Below, piece after piece: positions 5,831 to 37,359 of a stretch of 64,000 bases of DNA. The stretch is from Endomicrobiales bacterium. GTDB taxonomy: Bacteria; Elusimicrobiota; Endomicrobiia; Endomicrobiales; JAFGGC01. Each line of letters starts with the position of its first letter. The stretch's first letter is position 1. The notes beneath the pieces are model-generated. The model worked only from the letters and a program-made list of their open reading frames with translations. It made no database searches and had not been told where the DNA came from. The stretch lies in contig JAFGGC010000034.1 in the NCBI GenBank assembly GCA_016930715.1, positions 1 through 64,000 of the forward strand. The letters run 5' to 3'. The translations under genes and the position numbers were made by a program.

Positions 5831-5845
5831 TCCGGAGGAAAATAA

Positions 5846-8484: not shown

Positions 8485-9315
8485 ATGAAAAAGTACAGTT
8501 ATGTTTTGAAAACCGTTGTATATATTTTAGCCATAAGCTATCTTCTATCAGCTATCAGCATAGTTTACGCCGAAGTCCCTAACGAGATAACCTATACGGG
8601 TCGCCTTCGCGAATACGGCCAGCCCGCGAGCGGGACAAAGACTATGTGCTTTAAGATATTTGACGCCTCAAGCGCAGGTAATCAAGTATGGACATCCGGA
8701 AATCAATCTGTGACTATTTCAAATGGAGTGTTTACCTATAAGCTTCAGCCGACCGGCGTGGACTGGAGGGTCAAGGACTACTGGCTGGAGACAATAATAT
8801 CCGACAAAATACTGTCGCCCCGCGAGAAGCTGACTTCACAGGTGTACGCTCTGCATTCAAAAACCGCTGAGGATATTGAAAGATCTAACGGAACAATACA
8901 TTTCAGCATCGGTACAAGTACTTATGCTTCACTAAGCACTGATGGTGGATTGGAAACGGCATATGGATTTTTTCATGATAGGGGACCCGTAACAACCGTT
9001 GACTATACTCAGGCAGATTTAACGATTGATGGATCCTATTATGATTTGAGTCTCTCTACGGTTCCAAGTGGTGCTAAAGCGGTTTTATTGCGAGTCATCG
9101 TGAAAAACACCGAGGCGGGACGTTATATACAATTTCAAAATAAATATGGGATGTCAAACTTAAACAATATTTCAGAGATATACACACAAGCGCCGGATGC
9201 CTATATCGGGAATGATGTAATTGTTCCGTGTAATGCTGACAGGAAAATACAATGCAGAGTGGAAAACTCCGGCACATGGACAATTCAAATTGTTATCAAA
9301 GGTTGGTGGAAATAG
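8485..9315 (+). CDS. Secreted modular protein, paralog 1 (EVPNEITYTGRLREYG module plus KGWWK-type C-terminal domain)
   Basis: Signal peptide, then a conserved N-terminal module shared with the proteins at 15378 and 36445. Confidence 0.75.
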   Translation: MKKYSYVLKTVVYILAISYLLSAISIVYAEVPNEITYTGRLREYGQPASGTKTMCFKIFDASSAGNQVWTSGNQSVTISNGVFTYKLQPTGVDWRVKDYWLETIISDKILSPREKLTSQVYALHSKTAEDIERSNGTIHFSIGTSTYASLSTDGGLETAYGFFHDRGPVTTVDYTQADLTIDGSYYDLSLSTVPSGAKAVLLRVIVKNTEAGRYIQFQNKYGMSNLNNISEIYTQAPDAYIGNDVIVPCNADRKIQCRVENSGTWTIQIVIKGWWK

Positions 9316-9337
9316 ATTATTTAAAGTACTATGAAAA

Positions 9338-10507
9338 ATGCGAAATAGAATATATTTATTACTAATTGGATTACTAATTCTATCTGGATGCACAGCATTT
9401 TCGGAAAGATTGATAAAGGATAAATACGGTTATCCTTTTGGGATAGCTGTTGCCGATATAGATGGAGACGGGGACAATGATTTAACCAGTTCAGATGCGG
9501 ATAAACGCTGTATTTACTGGTTGGAAAATGACGGAATGGAGAACTTTAAAAGTTATTATGTTAAAGAAAAACATGAAGTGTCCTTTCTGGAACGTCATGT
9601 TGTTGGAGATATTAATAATGACGGGCATCCAGATGTAGTTATCGTAGATAATTTGAATGGGAATATATTATGGTATGAAAACAATGGTAAGCCAGGAGAT
9701 AAAATAGTATGGAAGCAGCATTATATCACGATCGGAGGAATGCCCGGAGCATATGACGTTGCGATAGGCGATTTGGATAAAGATGGCGATGTGGATATAG
9801 CGGCAACAGGTTGGCGAAGCAATACAGTTGCATGGTTTGAAAACTGTGCTAAAGGCGACAAAGAGGGGTGGGCAAGACATTCGATAGATGATGATCTAAA
9901 AACATCAAGGTGCATTAGAATTGTTGATTTTGATAAAGACGGAAACATGGATATTCTGGCCGGAGGGCAGGAATCAGCATTGGTAGCATGGTATAAGAAT
10001 CCCGGAGATACAAATAAAAATAAATGGGAAAGAATAGTAATTGATGAATTTACATTCTATCCAAACGGGGGGCAAGCTATTGATATTGATAATGACGGAG
10101 ATCTTGACGTAGTGATGGCGGGTTCCGAAAAACCAGGTTCAAACACGGGTAATGTTGTATGGTACGAAAACAACGGTAATCCTGAGAAAGGGTTGTGGAG
10201 TAAGCATAAAATCTATTCCTCTCTTGAAGGTTGCTTTGAAGCATCTGCAGGTGACTTGGACAATGATGGTGATATTGATGTTGCCGTAACAGCATGGGGA
10301 GACGATGGCTGGATAGCATGGTTTGAAAATTGCGGGAATCCTAAGAAAAAATGGAAGAAACATGTGCTTAAGAATAATTGGAAGAAGGCAAATCAGGTTA
10401 TTGTACGTGATCTCAACAAAGATGGAGCCCTTGATTTATTAGCAATTGCAGAGAGAGGGTCAGCAGAGTTTCGTTGGTGGAAAAACATGAAAAAAGGTAA
10501 AAAATGA
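9338..10507 (+). CDS. FG-GAP/VCBS-repeat lipoprotein
   Basis: Lipobox LILSGC; repeated D-x-D-x-DGDxD motifs (DIDGDGDND, DINNDGHPD, DLDKDGDVD, DFDKDGNMD, DIDNDGDLD, DLDNDGDID). Confidence 0.85.
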   Translation: MRNRIYLLLIGLLILSGCTAFSERLIKDKYGYPFGIAVADIDGDGDNDLTSSDADKRCIYWLENDGMENFKSYYVKEKHEVSFLERHVVGDINNDGHPDVVIVDNLNGNILWYENNGKPGDKIVWKQHYITIGGMPGAYDVAIGDLDKDGDVDIAATGWRSNTVAWFENCAKGDKEGWARHSIDDDLKTSRCIRIVDFDKDGNMDILAGGQESALVAWYKNPGDTNKNKWERIVIDEFTFYPNGGQAIDIDNDGDLDVVMAGSEKPGSNTGNVVWYENNGNPEKGLWSKHKIYSSLEGCFEASAGDLDNDGDIDVAVTAWGDDGWIAWFENCGNPKKKWKKHVLKNNWKKANQVIVRDLNKDGALDLLAIAERGSAEFRWWKNMKKGKK

Positions 10508-10526
10508 AAATAAACAGGGGGTAAAA

Positions 10527-11051
10527 ATGAAAGTCGCCGGAGACAGGATCTATATCAAGCGTTTGACGCCAGAGGACGTCACGCAGGATTACGTCAACTG
10601 GATGAACGATGCGGAAGTGACGCAGTTCCTCGAAAGCAGGTGGAAAACATATACCCTGCAGGATGTCAAGGACTACGTCAAGCACGTCAATTCGACTTCC
10701 ACGGAATTCATGTTCGGTATATTTTTGAAAGAAGGTGACAAGCACATCGGCAACATCAAGATAGGCGGCTTGAACCAGATGCACAAATACGCCGATATCG
10801 GGTTGATTATCGGGGAAAAGAGCATGTGGGGCAAAGGTTTTGCGGCGGAAGCCATAAAACTCGCGACAGAATACGCTTTCAAGGAAATGGGCCTGAACAA
10901 GATAATCGCCGGCATATATGAACCGAATGTGGGCTCGTACAAGGCGTTTTTAAAATGCGGTTACAAGGACGCCGCTAGGCTCAGGAAACACAGGATGTAC
11001 AAGGATAATTATGTCGATGAGTTCATAGTGGAGAAACTGAGGGAATGGTAA
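10527..11051 (+). CDS. GNAT acetyltransferase (RimJ/RimL-like)
   Basis: IGLIIGEKSMWGKGFAAEAIKLATEYAF and YEPNVGSYKAFLKCGYKDAAR motifs. Confidence 0.8.
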   Translation: MKVAGDRIYIKRLTPEDVTQDYVNWMNDAEVTQFLESRWKTYTLQDVKDYVKHVNSTSTEFMFGIFLKEGDKHIGNIKIGGLNQMHKYADIGLIIGEKSMWGKGFAAEAIKLATEYAFKEMGLNKIIAGIYEPNVGSYKAFLKCGYKDAARLRKHRMYKDNYVDEFIVEKLREW

Positions 11052-11052
11052 C

Positions 11053-12093
11053 ATGGGAACGATAAGGCTTCCGAAGATAAAAAAGCTCATAATATTCAGC
11101 GGTGGTGCTCTGCTTCTGGATTTTATAAGGGAAGCGGAGAAGAGAAACATTGAGGCGGTACTCTTTGCTGTAAGGCGCCACTTGGAAGAGAGGATCTATC
11201 CCGGTGACAACAGAACGCTGGAGCAGGTCCTGGAGGAAAAGAAAGTACGTTATTATCAGGAAAGTGATATCAATAGATCGAAAGAGCTTTTTAAGTTGAT
11301 AGATGAAAACACCCTTGGTGTCGGCTTGGGAGAGGCGTACACGTTCGCTCAGAAAACAATAGACGCTTTCGGCGGCAAGTTGTTCGATTTCATGGTAATA
11401 AACCTGCCGGAATACCGCGGAGGCGCGCATTTTACCTGGCAGATACTCAGGAAATCAACAAAGGGCTGCTGGAACATACAGGTCATAAATAAGGATATGG
11501 TTCCGGGCGTCTTTGATTCCGGAGCGGTGATAAAAAGAAGGGAATATGTCATTTCGGTGAACTGCCGTGTTCCATCGGATATCTACGCGTTATCCGACAA
11601 AGAGGGGCTTCAGCTTTTCAAGGATTTCTTGGATGACATAGAAGCAGGAATGGCATTCGTGCCGAAGCCGCTTGATGAAGGCAAAAGCTCTTACTTCCCG
11701 AGGATGTACACGCTTAAGCACGGATATATTAACTGGAGCTGGTCAGCCGAGGAGATAGATAGGTTCATATGCGCCTTTGACGATCCGTACCCCGGCGCTT
11801 CGACGTATTTAGGCGGGAAAAAGGTATTCATCAAGAAATGCAGGATGGACCGTTCCGAGGGCGGTTTTCACCCGTTCATTTCGGGGTTGATATTCAGGAT
11901 ACAAGATGGCAAGGTCTTCGCCGCGGCGAACGGCGGGGCTCTTGAAATAGGCCGGATATGCGATGAGACAGGCAAGGATTGCGTAAAAAACCTGAAACCG
12001 GGACAGAGACTGTATACGCCCGTGAAATATATCGAGGAAGCGATGTTATTTGACGCGGAATATGACAGTGAAGGACTGAAAACAGGCAAATAG
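11053..12093 (+). CDS. Formyltransferase-like protein (sugar N-formyltransferase family) with atypical catalytic residues
   Basis: GKLFDFMVINLPEYRGGAHFTWQI...VPGVFDSGAVI fits the formyltransferase fold signature. Confidence 0.65.
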   Translation: MGTIRLPKIKKLIIFSGGALLLDFIREAEKRNIEAVLFAVRRHLEERIYPGDNRTLEQVLEEKKVRYYQESDINRSKELFKLIDENTLGVGLGEAYTFAQKTIDAFGGKLFDFMVINLPEYRGGAHFTWQILRKSTKGCWNIQVINKDMVPGVFDSGAVIKRREYVISVNCRVPSDIYALSDKEGLQLFKDFLDDIEAGMAFVPKPLDEGKSSYFPRMYTLKHGYINWSWSAEEIDRFICAFDDPYPGASTYLGGKKVFIKKCRMDRSEGGFHPFISGLIFRIQDGKVFAAANGGALEIGRICDETGKDCVKNLKPGQRLYTPVKYIEEAMLFDAEYDSEGLKTGK

Positions 12094-12096
12094 ATG

Positions 12097-12572
12097 ATAG
12101 CTTATAGCAAATAGCCAATGGCAAAAGTCATAAGCGATTGACAATAAGCGGAATCACAATGAGAGACTATAAAAAATTGATTGTTTTTCAGAAAGCACAT
12201 AGATTTGTTATTGCTATCTATAAAATAACTAAAGCATTTCCTAAACATGAACAATATGCATTGACTTCTCAACTACGAAGAGCAGCTATTTCAGTTCCTG
12301 CAAATATTGTTGAAGGTTCAAGAAGGAATTCGGAAAAGGAATATTTGCAGTTTCTTAATATCTCGCTTTCGTCGTTGTCGGAAGTGGAGTACTATATAGA
12401 ATTGTCAAATGAACTAAAATATATTGATTCCAAAGAATATGCAGGACTGATTTCAAGTTGCAATGATATATTTGCTATGCTTCATGGTTTAATGAAGACT
12501 ATAAAAGACAGTAGTAAACAGTAAGCAATTATCAATAAGCAATGAGCAATTAGCTATAAGCAAATAGCAATG
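12097..12572. repeat. Short degenerate direct repeats bracketing the four-helix-bundle gene
   Basis: tagcttatagcaaatagccaatg (12098-12120) vs tagctataagcaaatagcaatg (12551-12572); taagcgattgacaataagc (12131-12149) vs taagcaattatcaataagc (12522-12540). Confidence 0.75.
12159..12524 (+). CDS. Four-helix-bundle protein (23S rRNA intervening-sequence protein family)
   Basis: MRDYKKLIVFQKAHRFVIAIYKITKAFPKHEQYALTSQLRRAAISVPANIVEGSRRNSEKEYLQFLNISLSSLSEVEYYI is characteristic of the IVP/four-helix-bundle family. Confidence 0.92.
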   Translation: MRDYKKLIVFQKAHRFVIAIYKITKAFPKHEQYALTSQLRRAAISVPANIVEGSRRNSEKEYLQFLNISLSSLSEVEYYIELSNELKYIDSKEYAGLISSCNDIFAMLHGLMKTIKDSSKQ

Positions 12573-12593
12573 TGTAATTTTAGGAGTGATAAA

Positions 12594-13898
12594 ATGTCAA
12601 ACATGTTGGAATTATTGAAACAAATCTACCCCCTGCAGCTTGCGCCGATATCTTCTGACACGGAAAAGGCGTTTGATATCATAAAACGGCAGCTTCCCGG
12701 TGAAGTAGAACTGCACGAGTATCCTTCGGGGATGGAATTCAACGGCTGGATAGTACCGCAGTCATGGGGAATAAAGAAAGCGGAGATACGAAAGAACGGG
12801 AAACTCATATACGACGGCACTAAGCACGTCCTTGGTGTAATGAGCTATTCAAAATCATTTACCGGCGACGTCAGTCTGGACGAATTGAAGAAACACCTGA
12901 CATTCAGGAAGGACCAGCCCGCGGCAGTCGGGTATCACTGTGATTATTTCATCAAACAGTGGACGGCCGACTGGGGCATGAGCGTGCCGTATAACTTGTA
13001 CAAAAAGCTGCAGAAAGGGACCTATAACGTTGACCTTCAGACGGTCTTTAGGGACGGTAGAATGAAGGTCCTGGACTGCTTCCTGCCGGGTAAAAGTCCT
13101 GAGACGGTAATATTGAACGCTCACAGCTGCCACGCAGGCCAGGCAAACGACGGGGCATCAGGCATAGCGGTCGGCATGGAACTGATGAACCGCCTTTCAA
13201 AAAGGAAGAACAAGTACTCGTACCGGTTTATAATAACGGCCGAACACCTCGGGACGGTGTTTTATCTTTCAAAAATTCCGAAAGAAACTCTTAAAACCTT
13301 CAAGCACGGCATATTCCTTGAGATGCTGGGGAACAATAACCGCCTGATAGTGCAAAAAAGCCTTTTGGGGGACAATCTGATAGACAAGATAGCCGAGCAC
13401 TACGTGGAAACTTATGAAAAACGCGGGCAGACAGCGCCTTTCAGGAAGGTCGTCGGCAATGACGAGACGGTCTGGGAGGCAGCCGGCTACGAAGTGCCTA
13501 TGATATCGGTTTCCAGATGGCCGTACAAGGAATACCATACTTCGCTGGATGACGAGAAAATAATATCAGAAAAGAAACTGGAGGAGTCGGCGGCCGCGAT
13601 AGAAGAGATGCTGTTCATTTTGGATACCAACTGCCGGATGATCAGGAAATTCGAAGGCCTAATCGCGCTCAGTAACCCTAAATACGACCTTTACATGAAG
13701 CCGGGCACGGACCCCTCGATACCGGAAACCGTACCCGAAGAAGGGCGCAAGTTCAACTACATGATGGATTTTCTCCCGCGGTATTTTGACGGCAAAACGA
13801 CCGTGCTTGATATCGCGGTGAAGCACGGTTTAAGATACAGGTCTGTTTACAATTACATATGCAAATTTAAGGGAAAGGGGCTCGTGGAATTCGTATGA
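12594..13898 (+). CDS. DUF4910/DUF2172-type aminopeptidase-like (M28-like) protein
   Basis: Architecture NGWIVPQSWGIKKAEIRKNGKLIYDG ... LNAHSCHAGQANDGASGIAVGMELM ... ITAEHLGTVFYLS, with C-terminal winged-helix-like segment. Confidence 0.75.
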   Translation: MSNMLELLKQIYPLQLAPISSDTEKAFDIIKRQLPGEVELHEYPSGMEFNGWIVPQSWGIKKAEIRKNGKLIYDGTKHVLGVMSYSKSFTGDVSLDELKKHLTFRKDQPAAVGYHCDYFIKQWTADWGMSVPYNLYKKLQKGTYNVDLQTVFRDGRMKVLDCFLPGKSPETVILNAHSCHAGQANDGASGIAVGMELMNRLSKRKNKYSYRFIITAEHLGTVFYLSKIPKETLKTFKHGIFLEMLGNNNRLIVQKSLLGDNLIDKIAEHYVETYEKRGQTAPFRKVVGNDETVWEAAGYEVPMISVSRWPYKEYHTSLDDEKIISEKKLEESAAAIEEMLFILDTNCRMIRKFEGLIALSNPKYDLYMKPGTDPSIPETVPEEGRKFNYMMDFLPRYFDGKTTVLDIAVKHGLRYRSVYNYICKFKGKGLVEFV

Positions 13899-15355
13899 CG
13901 AAGTACAAGATCTGTTACCTTGACCATCACGGAGCTAACGAGATATATATTAAACTGCACAAGAGATTCGTGGATGCCGGTATCGTGCAGGAAAACCCGG
14001 CGTTTTTTTCGATGAGCATGTACTACAAGAGTAAGTTCAGGAAAGCGTTCAAGAACGCCGAAATAGTGGATGTTCCGAACATACTTGACTGGATGAGGTT
14101 AAAATTCACTAACAAGAACGGTAAAATCGAACCGTACGTTTTCGGGAACGAATATTTCGAGCGGGGATGGAAACTTGACAAGGTGTTGAGATTTAAAAAA
14201 AGGGAAGACGTCCTTTTGCTTTGGAACGAGATCGTGAAGCGTTCACTTGAATTTCTGGAAAGAACAAGGCCTGACTTCATAATCGGCGAGCAGATGCAGG
14301 TTATGCCTTATTACGCCGTATTCCTGTGCGCGGTGAAGCTGAAAATACCCTATATACACTATGCCACCGCACGTCTTGAAGAAGGCACGGAAATCTATAA
14401 CAGCGTTTCGAACATACCGTTGGATTTCAACATGGATACGGATGCACCGAAGGAGATAGTCGAAAGGGCAAAAGGGCATATTGAAAGGATAAGGTCCAAA
14501 TTCTACAAAAGCCCGCTATATGGCGAAACAGAACCCCCGAAGGTAAAGAACGAGGATATCAGGAAGTATTTCAAATACCTGTATGAACAGTTCAACGGCG
14601 GTATGCTGGAGACCACCGGCAGGGGATTGTTCAGCCCTGTCAGGAGCAAGCTTACCGGGATGAAGCTTTATAAAGTATTGCAAAAAGGAAAATATTTCAA
14701 GCATATCGATGCAGTAAAGGAGTTGAAGGGCAAAAAGAAGCTTTTCTTCCCGCTGCATGTCACGCCCGAGGCAAGTACCGACCTTTGGGCGCCGAAGTAC
14801 AATGACATGTACGAAACGGCAAGAATGATAACCGACAAACTGCCCGGGAATTGGGTGCTGGTTATAAAGGAACATCCTTCGGTCGTGACGCTTCAAAGGC
14901 CCATTGAAGAAATAGAAAAGATATCAAGACTGCCGAATTCCGTGTTTTTAGGGCCGTACGAGTCGAACGCCGAGCTGTTCAAACTATGCGACGCCGGGAT
15001 AATGATACTGGGGACGCTGGGTATGGAGATGATAATAAACGGATTTCCGACCATCACGATAGCCGACGCCGTTTACAATGCCACGGGCAACACCGTTTAT
15101 TGCCCGGACCTTGAAAACCTGCCGAAGGCCCTGAACGATGTACTTAAAAAGAAGATAGATGAAGATAAGAATATTAGATTCGTCGCGGGATTCATCAACT
15201 GCATTGCAAAAGGCGTGCCTATCAACCCGGATTTCTATCCGGAATATCTAAATGACGATAATATTTCAGTAATAGCGGATAGTTTTAAAGCCCGGGTGCT
15301 TGATAAGAAACAATACCTTTTGAGTTACATTGATCAAGGGATACCAACTATATAA
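13895..15355 (+). CDS. Surface carbohydrate biosynthesis protein (Kps/CDP-glycerol transferase-like fold)
   Basis: VIKEHPSV...GPYESNAELFKLCDAGIMILGTLGMEMIINGFPTITI resembles capsule transferase C-terminal halves. Confidence 0.5.
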   Translation: MTKYKICYLDHHGANEIYIKLHKRFVDAGIVQENPAFFSMSMYYKSKFRKAFKNAEIVDVPNILDWMRLKFTNKNGKIEPYVFGNEYFERGWKLDKVLRFKKREDVLLLWNEIVKRSLEFLERTRPDFIIGEQMQVMPYYAVFLCAVKLKIPYIHYATARLEEGTEIYNSVSNIPLDFNMDTDAPKEIVERAKGHIERIRSKFYKSPLYGETEPPKVKNEDIRKYFKYLYEQFNGGMLETTGRGLFSPVRSKLTGMKLYKVLQKGKYFKHIDAVKELKGKKKLFFPLHVTPEASTDLWAPKYNDMYETARMITDKLPGNWVLVIKEHPSVVTLQRPIEEIEKISRLPNSVFLGPYESNAELFKLCDAGIMILGTLGMEMIINGFPTITIADAVYNATGNTVYCPDLENLPKALNDVLKKKIDEDKNIRFVAGFINCIAKGVPINPDFYPEYLNDDNISVIADSFKARVLDKKQYLLSYIDQGIPTI

Positions 15356-15377
15356 TTCAAGCGGGAGGGAAGATCAG

Positions 15378-16220
15378 ATGAAAAAGTACCTATGTGCCTT
15401 ATTTTTTGTTCTTGCAATTAGCTGTATGCCATCGGCCATCTGCGGCGTATTTGCGGAGGTCCCGAACGAAATAACCTACACGGGGAGGCTGCGGGAATAC
15501 GGTCAGGCCGCAAGCGGGACAAAGACAATTCGTTTTACGATTTATGACGCGTCGTCGGGGGGCAACCAGAAATGGACCAGCGGCGATGTCAGCGTTACGG
15601 TGACGAACGGCGTGTTCACACAAACTCTTTCGCCGAATGTGGACTGGAGAGGCGGCTCTTTCTGGATAGAAACCATAATAAGCGGCAAAGTGTTGTCGCC
15701 ACGCGAAAAACTGACGACACAGGTATTCGCTCTTCATTCGAGGACAGCTGAAGATGTTGAAAAAGCATCAGGCCAAAACATTCATTTTTCGGTAGGGAAC
15801 AGCACTTATGTGGTGATCCTGGCCACTGGAACTGTACAGATAAACGGTTCATTGGAAGTGTCAAATTATATGAATTCATTCTGGGATAGGGGAGATCCTT
15901 CTAGCGCTGATTTTACAGCTGCAAGCTTTACGACAGATAATACTTGGCGCACAATGGATTTGTCGTCTATTGTTCCGACTGGTACAAAAGCAGTATTGCT
16001 TTATATTACCGCAAGAAATGATAGTGGTTTAAGAATAATGAAATTCAGAAAGAAAGGGAACAGCAATGAGTATAATGTTAGCGAAATGCAGGCTCTTGCT
16101 GGTGAATATAGGTCTGGTGATTATATTGTCCCAGTTTCAACCGCAAGAGAAATTGAATACAAAATTCCTTCCGCGACAAACTGGTTAATTAATGTAGCAG
16201 TCAAAGGATGGTGGAAATAG
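15378..16220 (+). CDS. Secreted modular protein, paralog 2 (EVPNEITYTGRLREYG module plus KGWWK-type C-terminal domain)
   Basis: Signal peptide; N-terminal module nearly identical to the 8485 and 36445 proteins; C-terminus ends VAVKGWWK as in paralog 1. Confidence 0.75.
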   Translation: MKKYLCALFFVLAISCMPSAICGVFAEVPNEITYTGRLREYGQAASGTKTIRFTIYDASSGGNQKWTSGDVSVTVTNGVFTQTLSPNVDWRGGSFWIETIISGKVLSPREKLTTQVFALHSRTAEDVEKASGQNIHFSVGNSTYVVILATGTVQINGSLEVSNYMNSFWDRGDPSSADFTAASFTTDNTWRTMDLSSIVPTGTKAVLLYITARNDSGLRIMKFRKKGNSNEYNVSEMQALAGEYRSGDYIVPVSTAREIEYKIPSATNWLINVAVKGWWK

Positions 16221-16222
16221 CA

Positions 16223-16978
16223 ATGAAAAGGATCGAGCACAGATACAACGATGTAGTAATATCAAAAACTGAATGGGCTATTAAGGGAAGAGATATTCTT
16301 TTATCAGTAGTGAAAAATATCGTTAAGACCAATTGGGGAAAGCAATTAGAATCTACAAATAAGAATAGTGCCCTTGACATTGGTTTTGGGCCCGGATTGT
16401 TCATTGAAGCGTATAAAGACATGGGATTTAAGCAGGTAACCGGCATTGACCGTTCAAATGACTGCGTTGAAAAGGCAAAAAATAACGTAAAAAAGGAAGG
16501 AATCGATTTTATATGCTCGGATGCCAATGAGTATCTTGAGAAAACAAGCGGTAAATACTCGTTGATCTCGGCATTTCACGTAATCGAACACATGGATACG
16601 GAGTATTTGAACAGGTTCATTGAACTTACCTACGGCAGGCTGGAGAACGGCGGAATGTTGCTGCTTGAAACCCCTAACATGAATTATCTTCTTGCGAATT
16701 ACCACCGATACGGAGACATAACGCACAAGAACGGTTTTACGGCAAACTCACTGACGCAGCTGCTTGAAGGGTATGGTTTCAAGCAGGTCATTGCGGGCGA
16801 AAAAAATGTGCAGGCCATGTCTCTTTTTCATGTAATAAGAAAGATTCTGGGTGAGAGCATTGTCCGCAGTATTTACAAAGCGGCTATACTGTTTTTAGAA
16901 GGCTTTGAGGAATTAAAAGCGAGAAGAGGTATATTTTCAACTTACTTTTGGGTTATAGGGAAGAAAAATGAAGAATGA
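16223..16978 (+). CDS. SAM-dependent methyltransferase (class I)
   Basis: ALDIGFGPGLFIEAYKDMGFKQVTGIDRS, ISAFHVIEHM, LENGGMLLLETPN. Confidence 0.85.
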   Translation: MKRIEHRYNDVVISKTEWAIKGRDILLSVVKNIVKTNWGKQLESTNKNSALDIGFGPGLFIEAYKDMGFKQVTGIDRSNDCVEKAKNNVKKEGIDFICSDANEYLEKTSGKYSLISAFHVIEHMDTEYLNRFIELTYGRLENGGMLLLETPNMNYLLANYHRYGDITHKNGFTANSLTQLLEGYGFKQVIAGEKNVQAMSLFHVIRKILGESIVRSIYKAAILFLEGFEELKARRGIFSTYFWVIGKKNEE

Positions 16979-18611
16979 TATAAAAACGTTTCTTAATACG
17001 ATTCTATCAGCTTTGGGATTATACAATACTGTTAAAGACATCTATAGGGTAAACATTTTAAACAGATTTGCGAAAGAAGGTTTTGAAAAAACACTAGATA
17101 TGTTAGAGAGAACGAATAAGATTGGGTTAAAAAAGAACTGTGGAATGTCTATTCTGCACTTTTATCCTGAGTTGAACTATGGTTTTAGCCTATATATTAA
17201 CTTGTTCATTGATTATATGCTGAAGATTAGAGGGGCAAATGTTGAAGCATTGATTTGCGAAGGGGAGATGACTTTTTGTACTACTTGCAATGATGCTAGA
17301 GAAGGACGTTTAACGTGTTACTGTAAAAACTGTATGAGGTGGGGGCAAAGATATCTAGATTTGTTTAAAATAAACGTGAAAAAGTATAGAGAATACATAA
17401 CAAAAGATGAAATTAAGGGAATTGAAGAAGAAACAAAGAAAATTATCAGAGTCATGTATGAATACAAATATAAGGGAATTAATGTAGGATATCACGCAAT
17501 AAATTCCGCTGATAGATACTTCATGGGTAAAAAACCGATAAAAAATGAATACCTTGATATATACAAGGAAGAGTTAAGAAATGCCATGATTTCTGTAAAA
17601 GTGGCCGAAACGATATTTAAAGAAAATAAATATGACCTTGTAATAATGCAGCATGGGATATATGCATCATGGGGGAGCTTTGTTGAATATGCGAAGAATG
17701 TTGGAATAAAGGATAGAGTATATGCGTTTGCAGATTTCTATGATTGCGGACTTGTTTTTGACATATTTAAAGCTGGAAGTGAGTATGAAAAGTATTTAGA
17801 GCTTAGAGGTAATCGCGAGTTAAATGAAAAGGAAAAAAAGGAATTAAATGCATTTTTGTCTAAAAGAAAAAAATCTTTGTTAGGGCAAATAAAGCTTTAT
17901 AAGAATGTGAAGAACCTGCCTCAGGGGTTTATGGAATCGTTAAAATCGTATAAAAGGGTTTATATGATATTTCCAAATCTTACATGGGATCCCGGGATAG
18001 AAAACCTGAATACAATTTATAGCAATATATGGGAATGGATAAGTCACACGATAGAATTATTCAAGGACAAACCGGAGTATAAGTTGATACTGAAGCCTCA
18101 TCCTTCAGACATACTTTCTCAAGAATCTCTAGAGCAAAAAATAAAGCATAAATATGCCGATATAAAAGAAAACATAACGATACTGCCCGCTGATGTGAAG
18201 CTTAAGGCATATGATTTTTTTCCGCATATCCATCGCGGTATCGTTTACAGCGGCACGGTCGGCATAGAGATGTCGCTGGACAATATCCCGGTAATTACGG
18301 CCGGTATGGCGCGCTATAAGGGCCTGGGATTCACGTTTGACGCGAAAGACAAAAAGGATTATGAACGGTTGCTGTTTTCGGATGAGCTGAAAATAACGGA
18401 CGAGATGAGAAAACAGCTTGAATTGTTCGCGGATTTCTACTTTATCAAGTCAACCGTCGATTTCCCGGTATTTAAAACGCTTCTGTCCTATCCGATAGAG
18501 CTGACCATAGATAATCTAAACGTGTTTAACCCTGGCGAGAACAGGGACATAGACCACATATGCGATTTTCTTATGGGCAAGAAAGAGATCATTCAATACA
18601 GGGATTACTGA
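16968..18611 (+). CDS. Surface polysaccharide transferase-like protein with Cys-rich segment
   Basis: FCTTCNDAREGRLTCYCKNC; LILKPHPSDIL...IHRGIVYSGTVGIEMSLDNIPVITAGMARY. Confidence 0.5.
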   Translation: MKNDIKTFLNTILSALGLYNTVKDIYRVNILNRFAKEGFEKTLDMLERTNKIGLKKNCGMSILHFYPELNYGFSLYINLFIDYMLKIRGANVEALICEGEMTFCTTCNDAREGRLTCYCKNCMRWGQRYLDLFKINVKKYREYITKDEIKGIEEETKKIIRVMYEYKYKGINVGYHAINSADRYFMGKKPIKNEYLDIYKEELRNAMISVKVAETIFKENKYDLVIMQHGIYASWGSFVEYAKNVGIKDRVYAFADFYDCGLVFDIFKAGSEYEKYLELRGNRELNEKEKKELNAFLSKRKKSLLGQIKLYKNVKNLPQGFMESLKSYKRVYMIFPNLTWDPGIENLNTIYSNIWEWISHTIELFKDKPEYKLILKPHPSDILSQESLEQKIKHKYADIKENITILPADVKLKAYDFFPHIHRGIVYSGTVGIEMSLDNIPVITAGMARYKGLGFTFDAKDKKDYERLLFSDELKITDEMRKQLELFADFYFIKSTVDFPVFKTLLSYPIELTIDNLNVFNPGENRDIDHICDFLMGKKEIIQYRDY

Positions 18612-20065: not shown

Positions 20066-20832
20066 AAGTAGTGATACTCGCAGGAGGAAAAGGGACGCGC
20101 CTCAGCGAAGAGACGGAAACAATCCCGAAACCGATGCTTGAGGTCGGCGGCAAACCGATGCTCTGGCACATAATGAAAGCGTATTCGCACTATGGCTTCA
20201 ACGATTTCGTGCTGTGCCTCGGTTACAAAGGGTATATCATAAAAGAATATTTTTCGCACTATTTCCTGCACACGAGCGACGTGATGATAGACATTGGGAA
20301 AAACACCATAAAAACCCTTTTCAGCGAATCGGAGCCCTGGAAGATAACGATGGTGGATACCGGGGTCGATACGATGACCGGCGGCCGGCTCAAAAGGATA
20401 GAGAAGTACGTGAAGGATGAGCCGTTCATGATGACGTATGGCGACGGTGTATCGGACATAGACATCAAGAAGCTGGTTGAATTCCACAAGAAGGGCGGAA
20501 AGATGGCCACAGTGACGGCGGTCCAGCCGCTGGGGCGCTTCGGGAGCCTTGAGATAGACAAAAACAGAGTCACTTCGTTCCTTGAAAAACCCAAGGGGGA
20601 CAACGGCTGGATAAACGGCGGTTTTTTCGTCCTTGAGCCGGGAATTTTCAAGTATATCAAGGGAGACCAGGCCATCTGGGAGCAGGAGCCGATGAGGAAC
20701 ATCGCGAAGGATGACAAACTGATAGCGTATAAACATACTGGTTTCTGGAAGCCCATGGACACGTTGAGGGACAAAAGGGAGCTGGAAGAACTTTGGTCGG
20801 GCGGCCGTGCGCCCTGGAAAGTGTGGAGATAG
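20062..20832 (+). CDS. rfbF: Glucose-1-phosphate cytidylyltransferase
   Basis: VVILAGGKGTRLSEETETIPKPMLEVGGKPMLWHIMKAYSHYGFNDFVLCLGYKGYIIKEYF. Confidence 0.93.
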   Translation: MKVVILAGGKGTRLSEETETIPKPMLEVGGKPMLWHIMKAYSHYGFNDFVLCLGYKGYIIKEYFSHYFLHTSDVMIDIGKNTIKTLFSESEPWKITMVDTGVDTMTGGRLKRIEKYVKDEPFMMTYGDGVSDIDIKKLVEFHKKGGKMATVTAVQPLGRFGSLEIDKNRVTSFLEKPKGDNGWINGGFFVLEPGIFKYIKGDQAIWEQEPMRNIAKDDKLIAYKHTGFWKPMDTLRDKRELEELWSGGRAPWKVWR

Positions 20833-20835
20833 AAA

Positions 20836-21807: not shown

Positions 21808-21819
21808 CGGGAAGAAACA

Positions 21820-23665: not shown

Positions 23666-23684
23666 TAAAAGGAGCACGTTAAAA

Positions 23685-25462: not shown

Positions 25463-25465
25463 ACT

Positions 25466-28959: not shown

Positions 28960-29703
28960 ATGAAAAAAACGGAATACGATGTCAGCATAGTACTGCCCGT
29001 GTACAACGAAGAAAAACGCATAAAATACACTGTCGACAGGATCGTGGAGTATTTTATCTCAAGAAATCTTAATTATGAGATTATCGTAGTTGACGACGGT
29101 TCGCGGGATAAGACGCTGGATATAGTAAAGGAAGTATGCGAGGGAAGGTCCGAAAACCTTCATTTTCTGCATAACCACGTCAACATGGGCAAGGGTTTTT
29201 CGGTCAAGAGGGGGATAATGTTCGCGAGGGGCGATATAATTCTGTTTTCGGACGCGGACCTTTCCACTCCTATCGAAGAATACGAAAAACTCGAAAAGGC
29301 CCTGAAAGAGGGAGAATACGACGCGGCGATAGCTTCAAGGGCAATGCCGGATTCAATCAAAACGGTGCCGCAGGGGTTTTTCCGTGACAGGATGGGCAAG
29401 CTTTTCGGAAAAATAGTGCAGATCCTCGTCCTTCCTGACATAGAGGATTCCCAGTGCGGGTTCAAGGCCTTCAAGAAAGAGTGCGCGCATTTTGTTTTCT
29501 ACTGGCAGACCATTTTCGGGTTCGGTTTCGACCCGGAAATACTGTATCTGTGCAAGAAACACGGGTATAAGGTCAAACAGATACCCGTGAAGTGGGAAAA
29601 CAGCTTTGATTCGAAGCTCAACCCCTTTACGGACACGCTGAAAATCGGATTTGAACTTTTTAAGATACGCCTGAAGATTTTGCTGGGGCATTACGATGTG
29701 TGA
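28960..29703 (+). CDS. Dolichyl-phosphate glucosyltransferase-like GT2
   Basis: VSIVLPVYNEEKRIKYTVDRI; IVVDDGSRDKT; FSDADLSTPIEEYEKL; DSQCGFKAFKKE. Confidence 0.88.
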   Translation: MKKTEYDVSIVLPVYNEEKRIKYTVDRIVEYFISRNLNYEIIVVDDGSRDKTLDIVKEVCEGRSENLHFLHNHVNMGKGFSVKRGIMFARGDIILFSDADLSTPIEEYEKLEKALKEGEYDAAIASRAMPDSIKTVPQGFFRDRMGKLFGKIVQILVLPDIEDSQCGFKAFKKECAHFVFYWQTIFGFGFDPEILYLCKKHGYKVKQIPVKWENSFDSKLNPFTDTLKIGFELFKIRLKILLGHYDV

Positions 29704-32073
29704 TCAAAGCGTTATGAGTAAAAAGTTATTGCACAATAAGTATTTTCTTTTGTTGGTTATCGTTCTTGGTTCGTTCTGTGTCCGTTACGCTTACATCGAC
29801 AAAGCGAACTTTGCCTCGATACAGGGAGGCGACCAGGCGATATACGTTCAAATAGCCGATAAAATCGTAAGAGACCACGTGTTCTCGCAGGAGCCGGGCT
29901 TGAGGTCGTTTATGCCGCCCATGCTTCCGTGGATTCTTGCCGGCCTGATGGCGTTGTTTGGACAGAACATGTACGTATTCTACATGTTCTTTTTCATTAT
30001 GAGCGCCGCGACGGCCGTGCTTGTATATGACCTTGTAAGACGGTTGTCAAATAACTGGACGGCGCTTTTAGCGGCGGTCATCTTTGCAGTTTACGAGGAG
30101 TTCATTTACTGGACAACGCATATATACACCGAAACGCCGTTTCTTTTCCTTTTCGCCCTGACGCTGGTTTTTGCGGTGAGATACGTAGAAAATAAGAAAA
30201 TGACGGACGTGTTTTTTACGGCGTTGTTCTCGGTGTGCACGTTTTACACGCGTTCTACAATGCTGCTTATTTATCCTTTCATACTCCTCTACTGGTGGAT
30301 TAATAATGATGAAGAGTGGCGAAGAAAACTCAGGGCCGCGCTGGTTTTTACTGGGATGGTAGGTATATTGCTTCTTCCCTGGAGCTTGAGGAACTACTCG
30401 ATACACAAAAAGCTGATACTCGGCAGCACAAACGGCGGCATGAACTTTCTGCAGGGCAATAACCAGTGGGCGTACGGGGAAAAGACCCTCCCGCCGCAGC
30501 TGTTCCCGGAACCGAATTACTGGCAAAGGCCCGAAATGACCGAAGCGGGCCAGGAGGAGTATTTTTACGGGGAAGGATGGAAATGGATAAAAAGCAACAA
30601 AAAAGGTTTCTATGGCTCGTAACGCAAAAATTGAAGTATATGCTGGAATACAAAATCGACGAAGCAAGTTATCCGGGCAAGGTAGCCGGAAACCGTCTCG
30701 GACCGCTGCTAAACTGGCCATATATCGGCATACTGGGCCTGGCGGGCGTGCTGTTGAGTTTCAAGCAATGGAAGAAACTTGTAATATTTTACGGGGTCAT
30801 AGCCGCGGTGATAGCGACGAACGCGTTGTACTACCCGGCGCAACGGTACCGCCTGCCGATGGATTTCGTGCTGATTTATTTCTCGGCCTGGGCGCTGTTT
30901 TACGCGATTGGGAACTTAATCAGGGTGACCGGAATAAGGCAATATTTCAGGGATTGCGCGATAAACGAATATACATTAAACGAGATATTCGGCAGGGAAA
31001 ACGGTTGGAAGATAAAATACGCGCTGATATCGCTTCTTGTCGCTGGTGTTTTTATCGCGTGGATCGGAGGAAAGGCCGTTCACGTGCAGGGAGTGCTTAG
31101 CGGGAAAAATATGTATTATGACGCGAGGACCCTGGTACACGGTCCCGCGAAGCTCGAGATGGACCGGCTATTCCTCCCGTGGGCTTCGTGGCTTCAGAAA
31201 AGGATGTGGCTAAAAGACGGCAAGTACCGCATAGGTATCGAGGGATACGGAGAGGAGTGCGAGGGTGAGCTTCCGTTGTTCAAGCTGAACGTGGACGGGC
31301 AGAAGGTGGGCGAGCTCACCTTTACAAAAAAACTTGAAGAGCATTACTTTGACGATGTTGAGATCAAGGGTGGTGAAAGGCTGATAGAACTGTTGTTTAC
31401 CAGAATAAAACCTTCAATGGCTCATGTCTATAACGTAAGCATAAAAAGGACCGGCGATATCAATGCGGAAAAGGCGACTTGGTACGGAGTTTTCATCGGC
31501 AGTCCTGCATACATATTTATCTTTCCCGTGCTTCTATCCGGGATTGCGTGCTGGTTCATGTACTTGCTGTACAAGAACCGGGATTCCTTGGATCTAATAC
31601 TAAAAAAATCGTTGCCTGTTGCGGCAGCGGCATTTTTGCTGATTGTCTTTAAGGTGTTCATATGGGGGAAAATAGTCGTGCCGTTTTACTCGAGCGTAGA
31701 ACGTATCGCGTCGGGTGGCGTTCTTGAATTCAATCCTTTGGACTGGGAACACGGCCCATTGAAGGAAGAAACGGGCAGAATATACATGCCATGGCCATCG
31801 TATCTGGAAAAGAGAATCTATTTGCCAAAAGGTGATTACAGGTTGACCATGTTCGGCTATGGCGAGGAGAGCCGGGGTAATATGCCCGCATTGGATGTCA
31901 GAATTGACGATAACCCGGTTGGAAAGATACTTCTGACCAAGCGGGATGAGGAAACATCAGTTGAATTTCACAGTGAAGGCGGGCAAAGGAATATCGCGAT
32001 AGTGTTTAAAAGGACGAAGGAAGAAATACCGAATATCTATTCGATTAGAATACAAAGGATTGCGAGGCCATGA
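29696..32073 (+). CDS. GT39-like membrane glycosyltransferase split by an apparent -1 frameshift at the A6 run 30599-30604; two tandem C-terminal domains
   Basis: ORF 29696-30622 ends ...GWKWIKSNKK|GFYGS*. The homologous continuation RFLWLVTQKLKYMLEYK... is in the -1 frame (ORF ending 32073). Confidence 0.75.
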
Positions 32074-32816
32074 AAGGGTTCAAGTTGTTCGGGCTGAATT
32101 TTAGCAATATAAGTCTTGACGAATCTATCGTCGAGATCGAGAAAATGATAAAAGACAAAACGCCGTCGATGCTGTTTTCTTTATCTGCGGAGCTGATAGT
32201 AAGGTCGGATAAGGACGGATTCCTCAAAAAGGTCTATGACGAGGCAAAAATACTAACGCTTGACGGGAACGTGGTGCACAACGCTGCAAGGTTATTAGGT
32301 TCCCCTGCGGCCGAGCCGGTAAGCGCGTCAAGAATTATGCTTAGGTTCATGGAAACGGCGGCAAAAAGGAATTATTCCGTTTATCTTCTAGGAGCTTCTG
32401 AAGAGGTGGTCAAGGAAACAGCGGAAACCCTCAGAAATAAGCATCCGGGAATCAATATCGCAGGAATGCATAACGGTTATTTTGATATAGAAAACGACCG
32501 GGACGTGGTAAGCGATATAAAGGTCAGTAATCCGGACATACTGTTCGTGGCGATGAGCAGTCCTCTAAAGGAGAGGTTCATATACAGAAATCTGCGCGAA
32601 ATGAATGTGCCTGTTTGTGTCGGGGTCGGCGGAATATTTGATATAATAGCTGGCAAGTGCAAACTTGCGCCGGAATGGATAAGCAGGATAGGATTGGAAT
32701 GGTTTTACAGGTTCATTCAGGAACCAAAGAGGCTGTGGAAAAGATATTTAATAACCAATACAAAGTTCATATTTTTAGTGGTAAAAGAGTTATTTGCTAG
32801 GAAAGGCGGGCAATGA
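32070..32816 (+). CDS. WecG/TagA/CpsF family glycosyltransferase
   Basis: LTLDGNVVHNAARLLG; YLLGASEEVVKETAETLRNKHPGINIAGMHNGYF; EWFYRFIQEPKRLWKRYL. Confidence 0.92.
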   Translation: MKGFKLFGLNFSNISLDESIVEIEKMIKDKTPSMLFSLSAELIVRSDKDGFLKKVYDEAKILTLDGNVVHNAARLLGSPAAEPVSASRIMLRFMETAAKRNYSVYLLGASEEVVKETAETLRNKHPGINIAGMHNGYFDIENDRDVVSDIKVSNPDILFVAMSSPLKERFIYRNLREMNVPVCVGVGGIFDIIAGKCKLAPEWISRIGLEWFYRFIQEPKRLWKRYLITNTKFIFLVVKELFARKGGQ

Positions 32817-33928
32817 AAAAGATACTAGTTACCGGATCCAACGGTTTCATGGGGAAAAATCTCATTGAGACGCTTGCCAGAAATGAAAATATAAGCTATT
32901 TCGGGTACGACTTGGATAAACCGAAAGAGGAATTAAAAAAATACCTGAAAGAAGCCGATATAATATTCCATTTCGCGGGAGTGAACAGGCCCGTGGACGT
33001 AAAGGAATTCGAAGAAGGCAACACGGCGTTCACGAAGGAAATGTTGGAGGATCTAAAAAAGAGCGGAAATACGGCAACGGTTGTCTTTATATCGTCGATA
33101 CAGGTTCATCTCGAGAATCCGTACGGTGTCAGCAAGAAAAAAGCGGAGGACCTGCTTATTGAATACGGCAAGAAGAACAAGGCTAAAGTATACCTGTACA
33201 GGCTGACAAACGTATTCGGGAAGTGGAGCAGGCCGAACTACAATTCCGTTGTGGCCACTTTCTGCCATAATGTCTCAAGGGGGATAGAGATAAAGATATC
33301 CGACCCTCAAAAGCAGATGGAGTTCAACTATATTGATGACGTTATAGCCGAGTTCACGGCGATAATCGACAAGGACGACAAAGACACGGAGAACTACTAT
33401 TACGACGTAAAGCCGGTCTACAGGATAAAGCTCAAGGACCTGGCGGAAACGATAGAAGGATTCAGGAAGACGCGCGAAAACCTGCGCGTACCTGACATGT
33501 CCGACAAGCTGACAAAATACCTCTACGCGACTTACCTGTCGTACCTGGAAAAGGATGATTTCAAGTACAAGCTCGATATGAAAACTGACCAGAGGGGAAT
33601 GCTGGCCGAACTGCTGAAATCGGAAAACTCTGGCCAGATATTCGTGTCTAAAACACACAAAGGCATAACGAGGGGTAACCACTACCATAACACGAAAGTG
33701 GAAAAATTCTGTGTTATCCAGGGGAAAGCAGTGATACGCTTCAGGAACGTTCTTTCAAAAGACGTGATAGAATATATGGTTTCAGGAGAAAAGATCGAAA
33801 TCGTGGACATACCGCCCGGCTACACGCATTCGATCCGGAATACAGGCGAAGGTGAGATGATAGTGTTGTTCTGGGCCAGTGAGATATTCAACGCAGATAA
33901 TCCCGACACGTACTTCAAGGAGGTCTGA
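32813..33928 (+). CDS. WbjC/CapF-type bifunctional SDR-cupin reductase
   Basis: SDR N-terminus (ILVTGSNGFMGKNL) plus C-terminal cupin (THKGITRGNHYHNTKVEKFCVIQGKAVIRFRNV...IPPGYTHSIRNTGEGEMIVLFWASEIFN). Confidence 0.88.
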   Translation: MKKILVTGSNGFMGKNLIETLARNENISYFGYDLDKPKEELKKYLKEADIIFHFAGVNRPVDVKEFEEGNTAFTKEMLEDLKKSGNTATVVFISSIQVHLENPYGVSKKKAEDLLIEYGKKNKAKVYLYRLTNVFGKWSRPNYNSVVATFCHNVSRGIEIKISDPQKQMEFNYIDDVIAEFTAIIDKDDKDTENYYYDVKPVYRIKLKDLAETIEGFRKTRENLRVPDMSDKLTKYLYATYLSYLEKDDFKYKLDMKTDQRGMLAELLKSENSGQIFVSKTHKGITRGNHYHNTKVEKFCVIQGKAVIRFRNVLSKDVIEYMVSGEKIEIVDIPPGYTHSIRNTGEGEMIVLFWASEIFNADNPDTYFKEV

Positions 33929-33933
33929 TAATA

Positions 33934-35064
33934 ATGAGCAAACTGAAAGTTATGACTGTACTAGGCACGAGGCCGGAAATAATAAGGCTCGCGAGAGTGA
34001 TGGCGAAACTTGACAAGTACACGAATCACATAACTTTGCACACAGGACAGAACTACGACTACGAACTTAACCAGATATTCTACAGGGATCTCGGCATAAG
34101 GAAACCGGATTATTTTCTAGGAGTTAAGAGCGCGTTGTTCGGCGAGGTGATAGGGAAGATAATTATTGAGGCGGAAAAGATATTAAGGTCGGAAAAACCT
34201 GACGCCGTCCTGATACTCGGGGATACCAATAGCGCGCTTTCCGCCGTGATAGCGAAAAGGCTTAAAATACCGATTTACCATATGGAAGCCGGGAACAGGT
34301 GCTTCGATTTCAATGTTCCGGAAGAAATAAACAGGAGAATAGTCGACCACATAAGCGATTTCAATCTTGTCTACACCGAAAACGCCAGAAGGAACCTTTT
34401 AAGGGAGGGGCTTCATCCAAGAAAGATATACCTCACTGGTTCGCCGATGAAGGAAGTCTTGACTCACTTCCGGGATAAAATTGAGAGATCGGATATACTG
34501 AAAAAACAGGGTTTAAGGGAAGGCAAATATTTCGTCCTGAGCACTCACAGAGAAGAGAACGTGGATTATCCCGCTAATCTCGAGAAAATAATGAAGGCGG
34601 TTAACCGTATAGCAGCAAAATACAAGCTTCCGATAATCGTTTCCACTCATCCGCGGACAAAAAAAAGGCTTTCGCAGCTGAAATCCGTAAGGATAAACAA
34701 AAACGTAATATTCGCGAAACCCTTCGGATTTTTCGACTATGTTAAACTGCAGAAATCATCGCTGTGCGTGCTCTCGGATAGCGGGACGATAAGCGAGGAG
34801 TCGTCAATATTGTCATTCCCGGCGATTACCATACGTAACGCGATGGAAAGGCCGGAGGCGATGGATGCCGGGAGCATAATACTAACCGGGCTTGATACCG
34901 ACACGATACTAAGGTCCGTTGAACTATCTGTGACGGAGAGAGGCGGAAAGAAGCCGATACCGACGGAATACGAGATAGAGAATACGTCGGACAGGGTCGT
35001 CAAGCTTATTCTCGGGACGACGAAGCTGGCGCACCACTGGGAAGGCGTGACAAAGATACTTTAA
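33934..35064 (+). CDS. UDP-N-acetylglucosamine 2-epimerase family (WbjD/CapG-like)
   Basis: KVMTVLGTRPEIIRLARVMAKLDKYTNHITLHTGQNYDYELNQIFY; LSTHREENVDYPANLEKI; LSDSGTISEESSIL. Confidence 0.9.
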   Translation: MSKLKVMTVLGTRPEIIRLARVMAKLDKYTNHITLHTGQNYDYELNQIFYRDLGIRKPDYFLGVKSALFGEVIGKIIIEAEKILRSEKPDAVLILGDTNSALSAVIAKRLKIPIYHMEAGNRCFDFNVPEEINRRIVDHISDFNLVYTENARRNLLREGLHPRKIYLTGSPMKEVLTHFRDKIERSDILKKQGLREGKYFVLSTHREENVDYPANLEKIMKAVNRIAAKYKLPIIVSTHPRTKKRLSQLKSVRINKNVIFAKPFGFFDYVKLQKSSLCVLSDSGTISEESSILSFPAITIRNAMERPEAMDAGSIILTGLDTDTILRSVELSVTERGGKKPIPTEYEIENTSDRVVKLILGTTKLAHHWEGVTKIL

Positions 35065-35116
35065 AATAATTCCTTATAAGCTGGAAGACCGGAAGAAAAA
35101 CCGACCAAAGCAAACA

Positions 35117-36448
35117 ATGAGCAATACGCTGATATACCTGCTAATAGGACTCATCCCTTTTCAATTCTATTGCACCTTCTATAAAACGTTATCGATATCA
35201 GCCGCGCAGATACTGGCAATCATAGTTATCGCGATAGCAATCGTATCTTTGATAAGGAACAAGGCAAAATACGAGAAGTCGACGATGGATTACTGCGTTT
35301 TAGGGCTGATAATAGTGATGTTTTGCAGCATACTGTTCGCTCATGACAGGATGACAAGCGTTAAGTACTTCCTGAAATGGGCAAGCTTTATTTTGCTGTT
35401 CTTCGCCGTGAAGGTCGCAGTTACAAGGAAAGAGATAATAAAAAAGACGCTGAAAGTCGCGCTTATTACGGGATTTGTCGTTTCAGTGATAGGCATCATC
35501 GAATATGAAATCGGTGTTGAGAAGATGTACTACATGGTAAATACGAGCAAATTAATGCCGGTGGTAATGGAACCAGATACCTTGAAGGACCTTTCATCCA
35601 CGGACAGCCTGAACTGGACCCAGTGGAAAGACGGTAAAAGGCACCTAAGGGTGCCGAGCACGTTCGAGAACGTGATAGATTTCAGCGCGTACCTGGGACT
35701 GATGCTGCCGTTTTTTCTGCTGGCATTGAATTACTCCGGAAGACCTGTACGTTTGATATATATGATCTTCATGACGACAATGCTAATTGCGCTATTTCTG
35801 ACATTTACCAGGAGCGCGTATATCGCGCTGGGTTTGATGTCGGTGGTAATGCTGGTATTCTCGCTGACTAAAACGAAAAACCGAAGGAACGCCTTGATAT
35901 TCGTGTTCGTGTGCCTTATCTCGATGGGTTTCATTATGGGAACGAAGGGTACGTCAGGGCTGGTGCGGGAAAGGTTCTCAGATTTCATCAAAAAGCAGGA
36001 CAGGGTCCCGTTTTGGACCAACGGGTTAAAGATATTCATTGCAAGACCGCTTTTGGGCGTGGGTATTGCGAATTACGGTACCGGCCTGGAAAAACACGCC
36101 GGTAACGACGCTCCGCGTTCACCGGCGCACAACCAGTACATCACGATGGCGGCTGAAACGGGTATCGCCGGGCTTGTGGTTTATCTGCTGATACTGTATT
36201 TCGGTTTCAGGTATTCTTATTTGATATTCGACAGGTCCGAAGGCGAAGAGGAGAAGTTGATCGGTCTGGGTTTTCTGGGTATGTGGACCTGGTATTCGTT
36301 CCAGACGATGTTTTCCGACCATTTCTTCAGCGATAAATTCGGGATGATGTTCTGGCTGATGGTGGGGTTGAACGCGAAACTTTATGAGTTGACTGTGGCG
36401 AAAAAAGATGCTATTATGCACGGAAATGAGGGAGGGGTTAAGGTATGA
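35117..36448 (+). CDS. O-antigen ligase/polymerase-like membrane protein (second)
   Basis: Polytopic; PLLGVGIANYG...RSPAHNQYITMAAETGIAGLVVYLLIL. Confidence 0.8.
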   Translation: MSNTLIYLLIGLIPFQFYCTFYKTLSISAAQILAIIVIAIAIVSLIRNKAKYEKSTMDYCVLGLIIVMFCSILFAHDRMTSVKYFLKWASFILLFFAVKVAVTRKEIIKKTLKVALITGFVVSVIGIIEYEIGVEKMYYMVNTSKLMPVVMEPDTLKDLSSTDSLNWTQWKDGKRHLRVPSTFENVIDFSAYLGLMLPFFLLALNYSGRPVRLIYMIFMTTMLIALFLTFTRSAYIALGLMSVVMLVFSLTKTKNRRNALIFVFVCLISMGFIMGTKGTSGLVRERFSDFIKKQDRVPFWTNGLKIFIARPLLGVGIANYGTGLEKHAGNDAPRSPAHNQYITMAAETGIAGLVVYLLILYFGFRYSYLIFDRSEGEEEKLIGLGFLGMWTWYSFQTMFSDHFFSDKFGMMFWLMVGLNAKLYELTVAKKDAIMHGNEGGVKV

Positions 36449-37359
36449 AAAGGTTATTCCTGTTATTGTGTATTCAAATAATAGTAACGGCGGCTGTTTT
36501 TGCAGAGGTACCGAACGAGATAACCTACACCGGAAGACTTAGGGAGTACGGGCAGCCGGCAAGCGGGACAAAGACGATGTGCTTTAAAATTTACGATGCG
36601 GCTACTGCCGGCAGCGAGAAGTGGACGTCCGGCAATGTATCGGTTACTGTGTCGAACGGCGTTTTCACCTACACGCTCGAACCCAATATTGACTGGCGAG
36701 GCAAGGATTATTGGATAGAGACGATGATATCAAACAAGACGCTTAGTCCCCGCGAGAAGCTGACTGCCAGCGCATATGCCTTTCATTCAAGGACGGCCGA
36801 AGATATCGAAAAATCATCAGGGCAAAATATTCATTTTGCAATAGGCGGAAGTACATTGGCAACGATAACCACCGACGGCAGGATAAAGGACAAAACAGGG
36901 TTTGTCATGCCGGTTGGAACGATTCTTTCATATGGTGGTGCAACGGCGCCTGAAGGATGGTTTTTGTGTGATGGTACAGTAAAACCGAAGAATACCTATC
37001 TTGAATTGTTTGACGCAATTGGCTACGCATTCGGTGGCAGCGGAGACAATTTTAACCTTCCTGATTTGAGAGGGAGATTTTTAAGAGGCTGGGATAATGG
37101 TGCCGGAAGGGATCCTGATTCAGGGAATAGAACAGAAATGAATTCCGGGGGTAATGATGGAGACAATATCGGATCCATCCAAGTATCTACAATTACAGCA
37201 CATTCACACACAGGGTCCGTTGGAACTTCGAGTTTACAAGTTGAAGAAACGATAGGTGTGAGTTACAGCCAACCCGTAGGTGTGACTTCTATCAATACTG
37301 TTGGCGGAAAAGAAACGCGGCCTATAAATGCTTATGTGAATTACATAATCAAGTATTAG
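36445..37359 (+). CDS. Secreted modular protein, paralog 3 (EVPNEITYTGRLREYG module plus phage tail-collar-like C-terminal domain)
   Basis: Same N-terminal module as 8485 and 15378; C-terminus VMPVGTILSYGGATAPEGWFLCDG...LPDLRGRFLRGWDNGAG is a tail-collar signature. Confidence 0.85.
   Translation: MKRLFLLLCIQIIVTAAVFAEVPNEITYTGRLREYGQPASGTKTMCFKIYDAATAGSEKWTSGNVSVTVSNGVFTYTLEPNIDWRGKDYWIETMISNKTLSPREKLTASAYAFHSRTAEDIEKSSGQNIHFAIGGSTLATITTDGRIKDKTGFVMPVGTILSYGGATAPEGWFLCDGTVKPKNTYLELFDAIGYAFGGSGDNFNLPDLRGRFLRGWDNGAGRDPDSGNRTEMNSGGNDGDNIGSIQVSTITAHSHTGSVGTSSLQVEETIGVSYSQPVGVTSINTVGGKETRPINAYVNYIIKY

Follow-up and report, generated by a model that had tools for sequence, protein, structure and literature searches.

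Secreted proteins with a conserved N-terminal module and phage-related tips in an Endomicrobiales bacterium: probable short fibres of the mosaic adhesive trimer type

What are the related secreted proteins encoded among the glycan genes of an Endomicrobiales bacterium (phylum Elusimicrobiota), and how did they come to carry different C-termini? Three of their genes lie in positions 1 to 64,000 of contig JAFGGC010000034.1 (assembly GCA_016930715.1), a stretch of 64,000 nucleotides which is called the window here. All three are on the + strand, and their products share a signal peptide and an N-module of about 102 residues but differ in their C-termini. The secreted fibre protein p1 (8485..9315) consists of a signal peptide (8485-8568), the N-module (8569-8874), a neck (8875-8934) and a GWWK-type tip domain (8968-9312). 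The corresponding parts of p2 (15378..16220) are 15378-15452, 15453-15755, 15756-15818 and, for its GWWK-type tip, 15876-16217. In p3 (36445..37359), a signal peptide (36445-36501), N-module (36502-36804) and neck (36805-36867) are followed by a tail-collar tip (36868-37359). A first-pass annotation of this DNA had proposed a secreted family of three with a conserved N-module, and the signal peptide and the module that it quoted are present in p1, p2 and p3. It overlooked a fourth close copy with a GWWK tip, p4. We consider it probable that p1-p4 are short surface fibres of the mosaic adhesive trimer (MAT) type with phage-derived tips.

MAT proteins of Bdellovibrio bacteriovorus have a signal peptide and a conserved beta domain of about 130 residues; their tips, some with phage-like or lectin folds, have been exchanged (PMC10769870). 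The tip folds include S74, TNF-like, C-type lectin and beta-sandwich, and the C-terminus has been exchanged between the otherwise similar proteins Bd2133 and Bd1334 (PMC10769870). These fibres are described as prey-recognition tools of the predator, and the tip fold of Bd2133 was called previously uncharacterised (PMC10769870). Two independent leads suggest that p1-p4 are of this type. NCBIfam NF053851 (Bdello_MAT_N) weakly matched 27 of 51 module proteins at E <= 0.01, the best at 1.6e-7; no other NCBIfam family matched these 51 proteins, except for three matches to two EgtB/SenA-type models. The second lead is the tip fold. A model of the p2 tip was built from three sequences (pLDDT 91.7, pTM 0.83), and a Foldseek search of 350,542 PDB chains gave E < 0.001 only for 8ond_A, 8ond_B and 8ok3, which are the tip of Bd2133. 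The tip was folded alone because the two-domain model as a whole yielded only flexible jelly-roll and carbohydrate-binding module matches with low template-modelling (TM) scores. By prediction, p1, p2 and p4 all have the tip fold of Bd2133, and the signal peptide is followed directly by an N-module whose predicted structure is beta-rich, with moderate confidence.

Phage families are also frequent among the tips, which supports the fibre-like tips that the first-pass annotation had inferred. In the C-termini of the 51 module proteins, Pfam identified Collar (16), Gp10_C (7) and FGE-sulfatase (2), with S74, K1-lyase_C and Gp53-like_C among the families matched once; together with the Bd2133-like tip of p2, this is the diversity of phage and lectin folds found on MAT proteins. 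The p3 tip is a member of PF07484 Collar (7.9e-20, 71 bits against a curated cut-off of 24). It matches the tail collar fibre family phrog_523 at 7.8e-29 and is up to 39% identical to phage homologs, including one from Bdellovibrio phage phi1402. Unlike the phage tail collar or short tail fibre, it sits on a secreted cellular N-module and not on a baseplate-binding part. The GWWK tip is common to p1, p2, p4, genomes G037 and G035 and two phage contigs, and was found in only 3 of the 295 Elusimicrobiota genomes searched. In the first phage contig (L070) it adjoins SU10-adaptor-like and internal-virion-like genes, and in the second it lies among virion-looking genes. The other strand of a GWWK-tip phage contig (L173:10057-12475) encodes, by eye, an O-antigen ligase/polymerase-like and a QueE-like protein.

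Module and tip have conflicting histories. The modules cluster by genome and the tips do not, and an approximately unbiased (AU) test rejected a single clade of the four GWWK-tipped modules (p = 7e-5). The p1 and p2 tips, which end in IKGWWK and VKGWWK, are 38% identical, and pairwise identity among the tips of p1, p2 and p4 is 38-41%. The nearest sequence relative of the p2 tip is the tip of phage L070 (49%), the p4 tip is 50% identical to that of the second phage, and the p1 tip is 45% identical to that of G037. The p2 and p4 tips are each more similar in sequence to a phage tip than either is to the other. The p3 tip is nearest to the L053 tip of genome G070 (53%), and the L053 module clusters with other G070 modules. 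A tip tree made to show independent acquisitions did not resolve the branching. The conflict between module and tip histories parallels the tip exchange among MAT proteins with similar N-terminal parts, and it agrees with the earlier proposal of exchangeable tips on a conserved secreted module.

A compositional boundary separates the two parts. The G+C content at third codon positions (GC3) of module and tip was 0.57 vs 0.36 in p1, 0.61 vs 0.32 in p2 and 0.62 vs 0.37 in p3; across p1-p4 it ranged from 0.57 to 0.75 in the modules and from 0.26 to 0.37 in the tips. In 30-codon windows the drop sits at the module end in all four genes. In the window's other genes, 496 pairs of adjacent segments had GC3 differences of 0.18 at most, so the composition step noted in the first-pass annotation at this junction exceeds the null. 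The genome also encodes two distant cousins, on contigs C10 and C24 (likewise overlooked in the first pass), and these have no step (0.83/0.71 and 0.74/0.68), nor do AT-rich Elusimicrobiaceae copies of the fibre gene; the step is therefore not intrinsic to the architecture.

The modules themselves are 75-80% identical in amino acids among p1-p3 vs 69-72% in nucleotides. Their synonymous divergence (dS) is 1.7-1.9 or not estimable; the sites are saturated. Synonymous sites have thus diverged under protein conservation, as had been noticed in the first pass. The idea that the module acts as an anchor for homologous recombination is not supported: at this nucleotide identity, the longest exact run common to the copies is 20 nt, which makes present-day homologous recombination between the paralogs unlikely. 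The same run length and the saturated dS also led us to reject recent exchange through the module, whether by gene conversion or by homologous recombination.

The fourth copy shows how such a gene may enter an operon. p4 is split by an assembly break inside the module, with one part at L008:2-724 (contig C35) and the other at L009:11841-11995 (contig C24). Its halves lie at the ends of C24 and C35, which were joined on their exact 39-nt overlap and the conserved gene order trpF-kdsD. p4 lies between trpF and kdsD, spaced by 21 and 8 nt, and these two genes are adjacent without a fibre gene in G037, G078, G088 and G029. Near kdsD, some genus g2 members of the Elusimicrobiaceae carry a fibre gene whose tip is of the collar type. 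The module is widespread in the phylum: it was found in 146 of the 295 genomes, on proteins of about 240 to 3,000 residues. Among named genomes, the closest one that has the module is Elusimicrobia bacterium RIFOXYA2_FULL_47_53, which seems to be G037 itself; a contig scan using the close module alignment reached only one other species. In G037, a collar-tipped copy is interrupted (L050:15265-16192), module and tip being in two overlapping frames through a frameshift or an assembly error. Another fibre gene of G037, remote from glycan genes, encodes a Gp53-like tip (L051:7535-10719). It sits, as on an island, between an IS200-type transposase gene and a small RusA-like gene, both AT-rich.

In the explanation that we favour, the signal peptide would export p1-p4 and the conserved N-module would most likely hold the protein at the cell surface. 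The neck would carry a tip that binds receptors and was captured from tail or virion proteins of phages, a GWWK beta-sandwich in p1, p2 and p4 and a tail-collar in p3. The modules are most likely old, resident and under purifying selection. AT-richer DNA would have supplied the tips at a later time, together with one or two downstream genes in the case of p1 and p2. Entire fibre genes were probably dropped into existing operons, p4 between trpF and kdsD being an example. Export signal, domain make-up and history come from the results above; anchoring, trimer formation and ligand are carried over from MAT proteins, by which the fibres may be trimeric and bind glycans of other cells or their own. 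Surface display and the mechanism of tip transfer are likewise what we infer, and exchange of tips between strains at one locus is possible.

Several points weigh against this explanation. Fast-evolving tips would likewise look mutually distant. None of the 51 module proteins exceeds the curated NF053851 cut-off of 60 bits, and of the window proteins p3 matches at 0.002 and p1 and p2 not at all. The window fibres p1-p3 have about 280-300 residues and little shaft, whereas the Bdellovibrio MATs have roughly 600-1,100. The Bd2133 match has a TM score of about 0.6 on a predicted monomer. The tip profile found no PDB sequence, so the link to Bd2133 is at the level of fold; PDB searches with the module profile gave nothing useful either. 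Other differences from the MAT proteins are the occurrence in Elusimicrobiota, which are not known to be predators, the position inside glycan operons and the GC-rich module with an AT-rich tip. The likeness is in the architecture, with a signal peptide, a conserved N-terminal domain and variable phage-like tips. A layout already described in predatory Bdellovibrio is thus found in another phylum, often beside surface-sugar genes. Its presence across Elusimicrobiota suggests a general bacterial way to turn phage receptor-binding tips into surface proteins, and a phage connection is suggested for the Bd2133 tip fold. Given the composition boundary, the empty integration site and tips that are closer to phages than to paralogs, population metagenomes allow a direct test of tip capture.

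A tentative alternative is that the ligand of the tips is the polysaccharide produced by the genes next to them; fibre and glycan type would then be exchanged as a pair, serving cell-cell cohesion or coat anchoring. Three of the four copies in the window's genome are inside the glycan cluster. Directly upstream of p3 are genes for a WecB-type epimerase and a Wzy_C O-antigen ligase/polymerase (33934..36448, +), and the p3 ATG overlaps the stop of the Wzy gene by 4 nt. The order WecG-epimerase-WecB-Wzy-fibre is common to this locus and G078, and a fibre gene directly follows Wzy in the window, G078, G070 and G116. Phage tail tips often bind O-antigen. Among the matches listed, 7 of 21 copies from 12 genomes have a GT2 or Wzy_C gene no more than 5 kb away vs at most 2.3 expected (p ~0.006, a rough value because paralogs are not independent). 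The tie to glycan loci that the first-pass annotation had proposed is partly supported: p4 is in a trp operon and several relatives lie elsewhere, the copies at L051, L058 and L061 not being beside glycan polymerases. Moreover, glycan loci are general hot spots of gene transfer, which would explain the proximity without function.

Cargo that travels with some tips is also in favour of this alternative. AT-rich DNA had been said to run from the first two paralogs into downstream genes, and it does. An FG-GAP repeat lipoprotein directly downstream of p1 (9338..10507, +; PF13517, 2.4e-42) has a GC3 of 0.32 vs about 0.6 in its neighbours and may have been co-acquired. Possible cargo of p2 is a methyltransferase dependent on S-adenosylmethionine (SAM) that overlaps its end (16208..16978, +; PF13489, 4.2e-17; GC3 0.45) and a capsule-synthesis-like protein (16968..18611, +; PF05159, 1.2e-5; GC3 0.40). 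The 5' two thirds of the latter gene are AT-rich, with GC 0.32-0.38 until about 18400. The genes after p3 (GC3 0.62) and p4 look native. Counted after the fact, a SAM methyltransferase gene directly 3' of a fibre gene occurs in five places, most of them AT-rich: after p2 (16208-16978), L050:3953-5811 (fibre L050:5839), L051:8410-9159, L054:7808-8491 and L056:12282-13775. In two of the five an FkbM-type one comes next. In G026, a PF00884 sulfatase-family membrane protein is encoded directly 3' of a collar-tipped fibre gene (L062:6613-8580). A fibre gene, its phage-derived tip and an enzyme encoded downstream that modifies glycans (in many cases a SAM methyltransferase) could form one cassette that moves into glycan operons and matches the fibre to the cell's own surface sugar, as a self-recognition or coat-anchoring system; we hold this to be quite doubtful. 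A defence system was rejected: the fibre genes match no PADLOC model, and the mad2 hit of the methyltransferase at 16208 seems to reflect generic similarity of SAM domains.

It is unlikely that p1-p4 are ordinary ancient paralogs with fast-evolving tips and no exchange, the GC step reflecting codon selection on the module. The poorly resolved tip trees and the long-diverged modules would fit. The AU test on the GWWK-tipped modules, the tips nearer to phages than to paralogs, the GC3 step beyond the null and absent from native cousins, and the AT-rich downstream genes argue against it.

That the genes are leftover tail-fibre genes of a prophage or tailocin, and not host surface proteins, is very improbable. 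Their tips do belong to phage tail families with close relatives in phage contigs, but the proteins have signal peptides, purifying selection acts on an old module and no phage genes lie beside the copies. This candidate was rejected on the N-module, which was absent from 50,697 phage records and was not found in viral contigs by a pattern-limited scan.

Least likely are polymorphic delivery proteins with swappable effector C-termini like those of the rearrangement hotspot (Rhs) and contact-dependent inhibition (CDI) systems, which share the conserved N-part, the exchangeable C-part and the composition step; we rejected them, since the C-termini here are receptor-binding folds, no toxin, Rhs repeats, two-partner secretion or immunity-like small gene was found, Pfam and NCBIfam matched no Rhs or TpsA features, and the downstream genes encode an FG-GAP lipoprotein, a methyltransferase, an aminotransferase or kdsD. 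The core-plus-tip swapping of the first-pass annotation is supported, with the logic of MAT and phage tail fibres in place of its Rhs/CDI analogy.

Upstream of p1, the glycan genes (4754..8458, +) include NeuB (4754), HisH-like (7036) and HisF-like (7670) genes. Together with a formyltransferase-like gene (11053-12093) they suggest a nonulosonic acid or an amidinated, formylated sugar. An AT-rich patch inside the glycan cluster (12138-12524) encodes a small protein that resembles, by eye, the four-helix-bundle S23 family.

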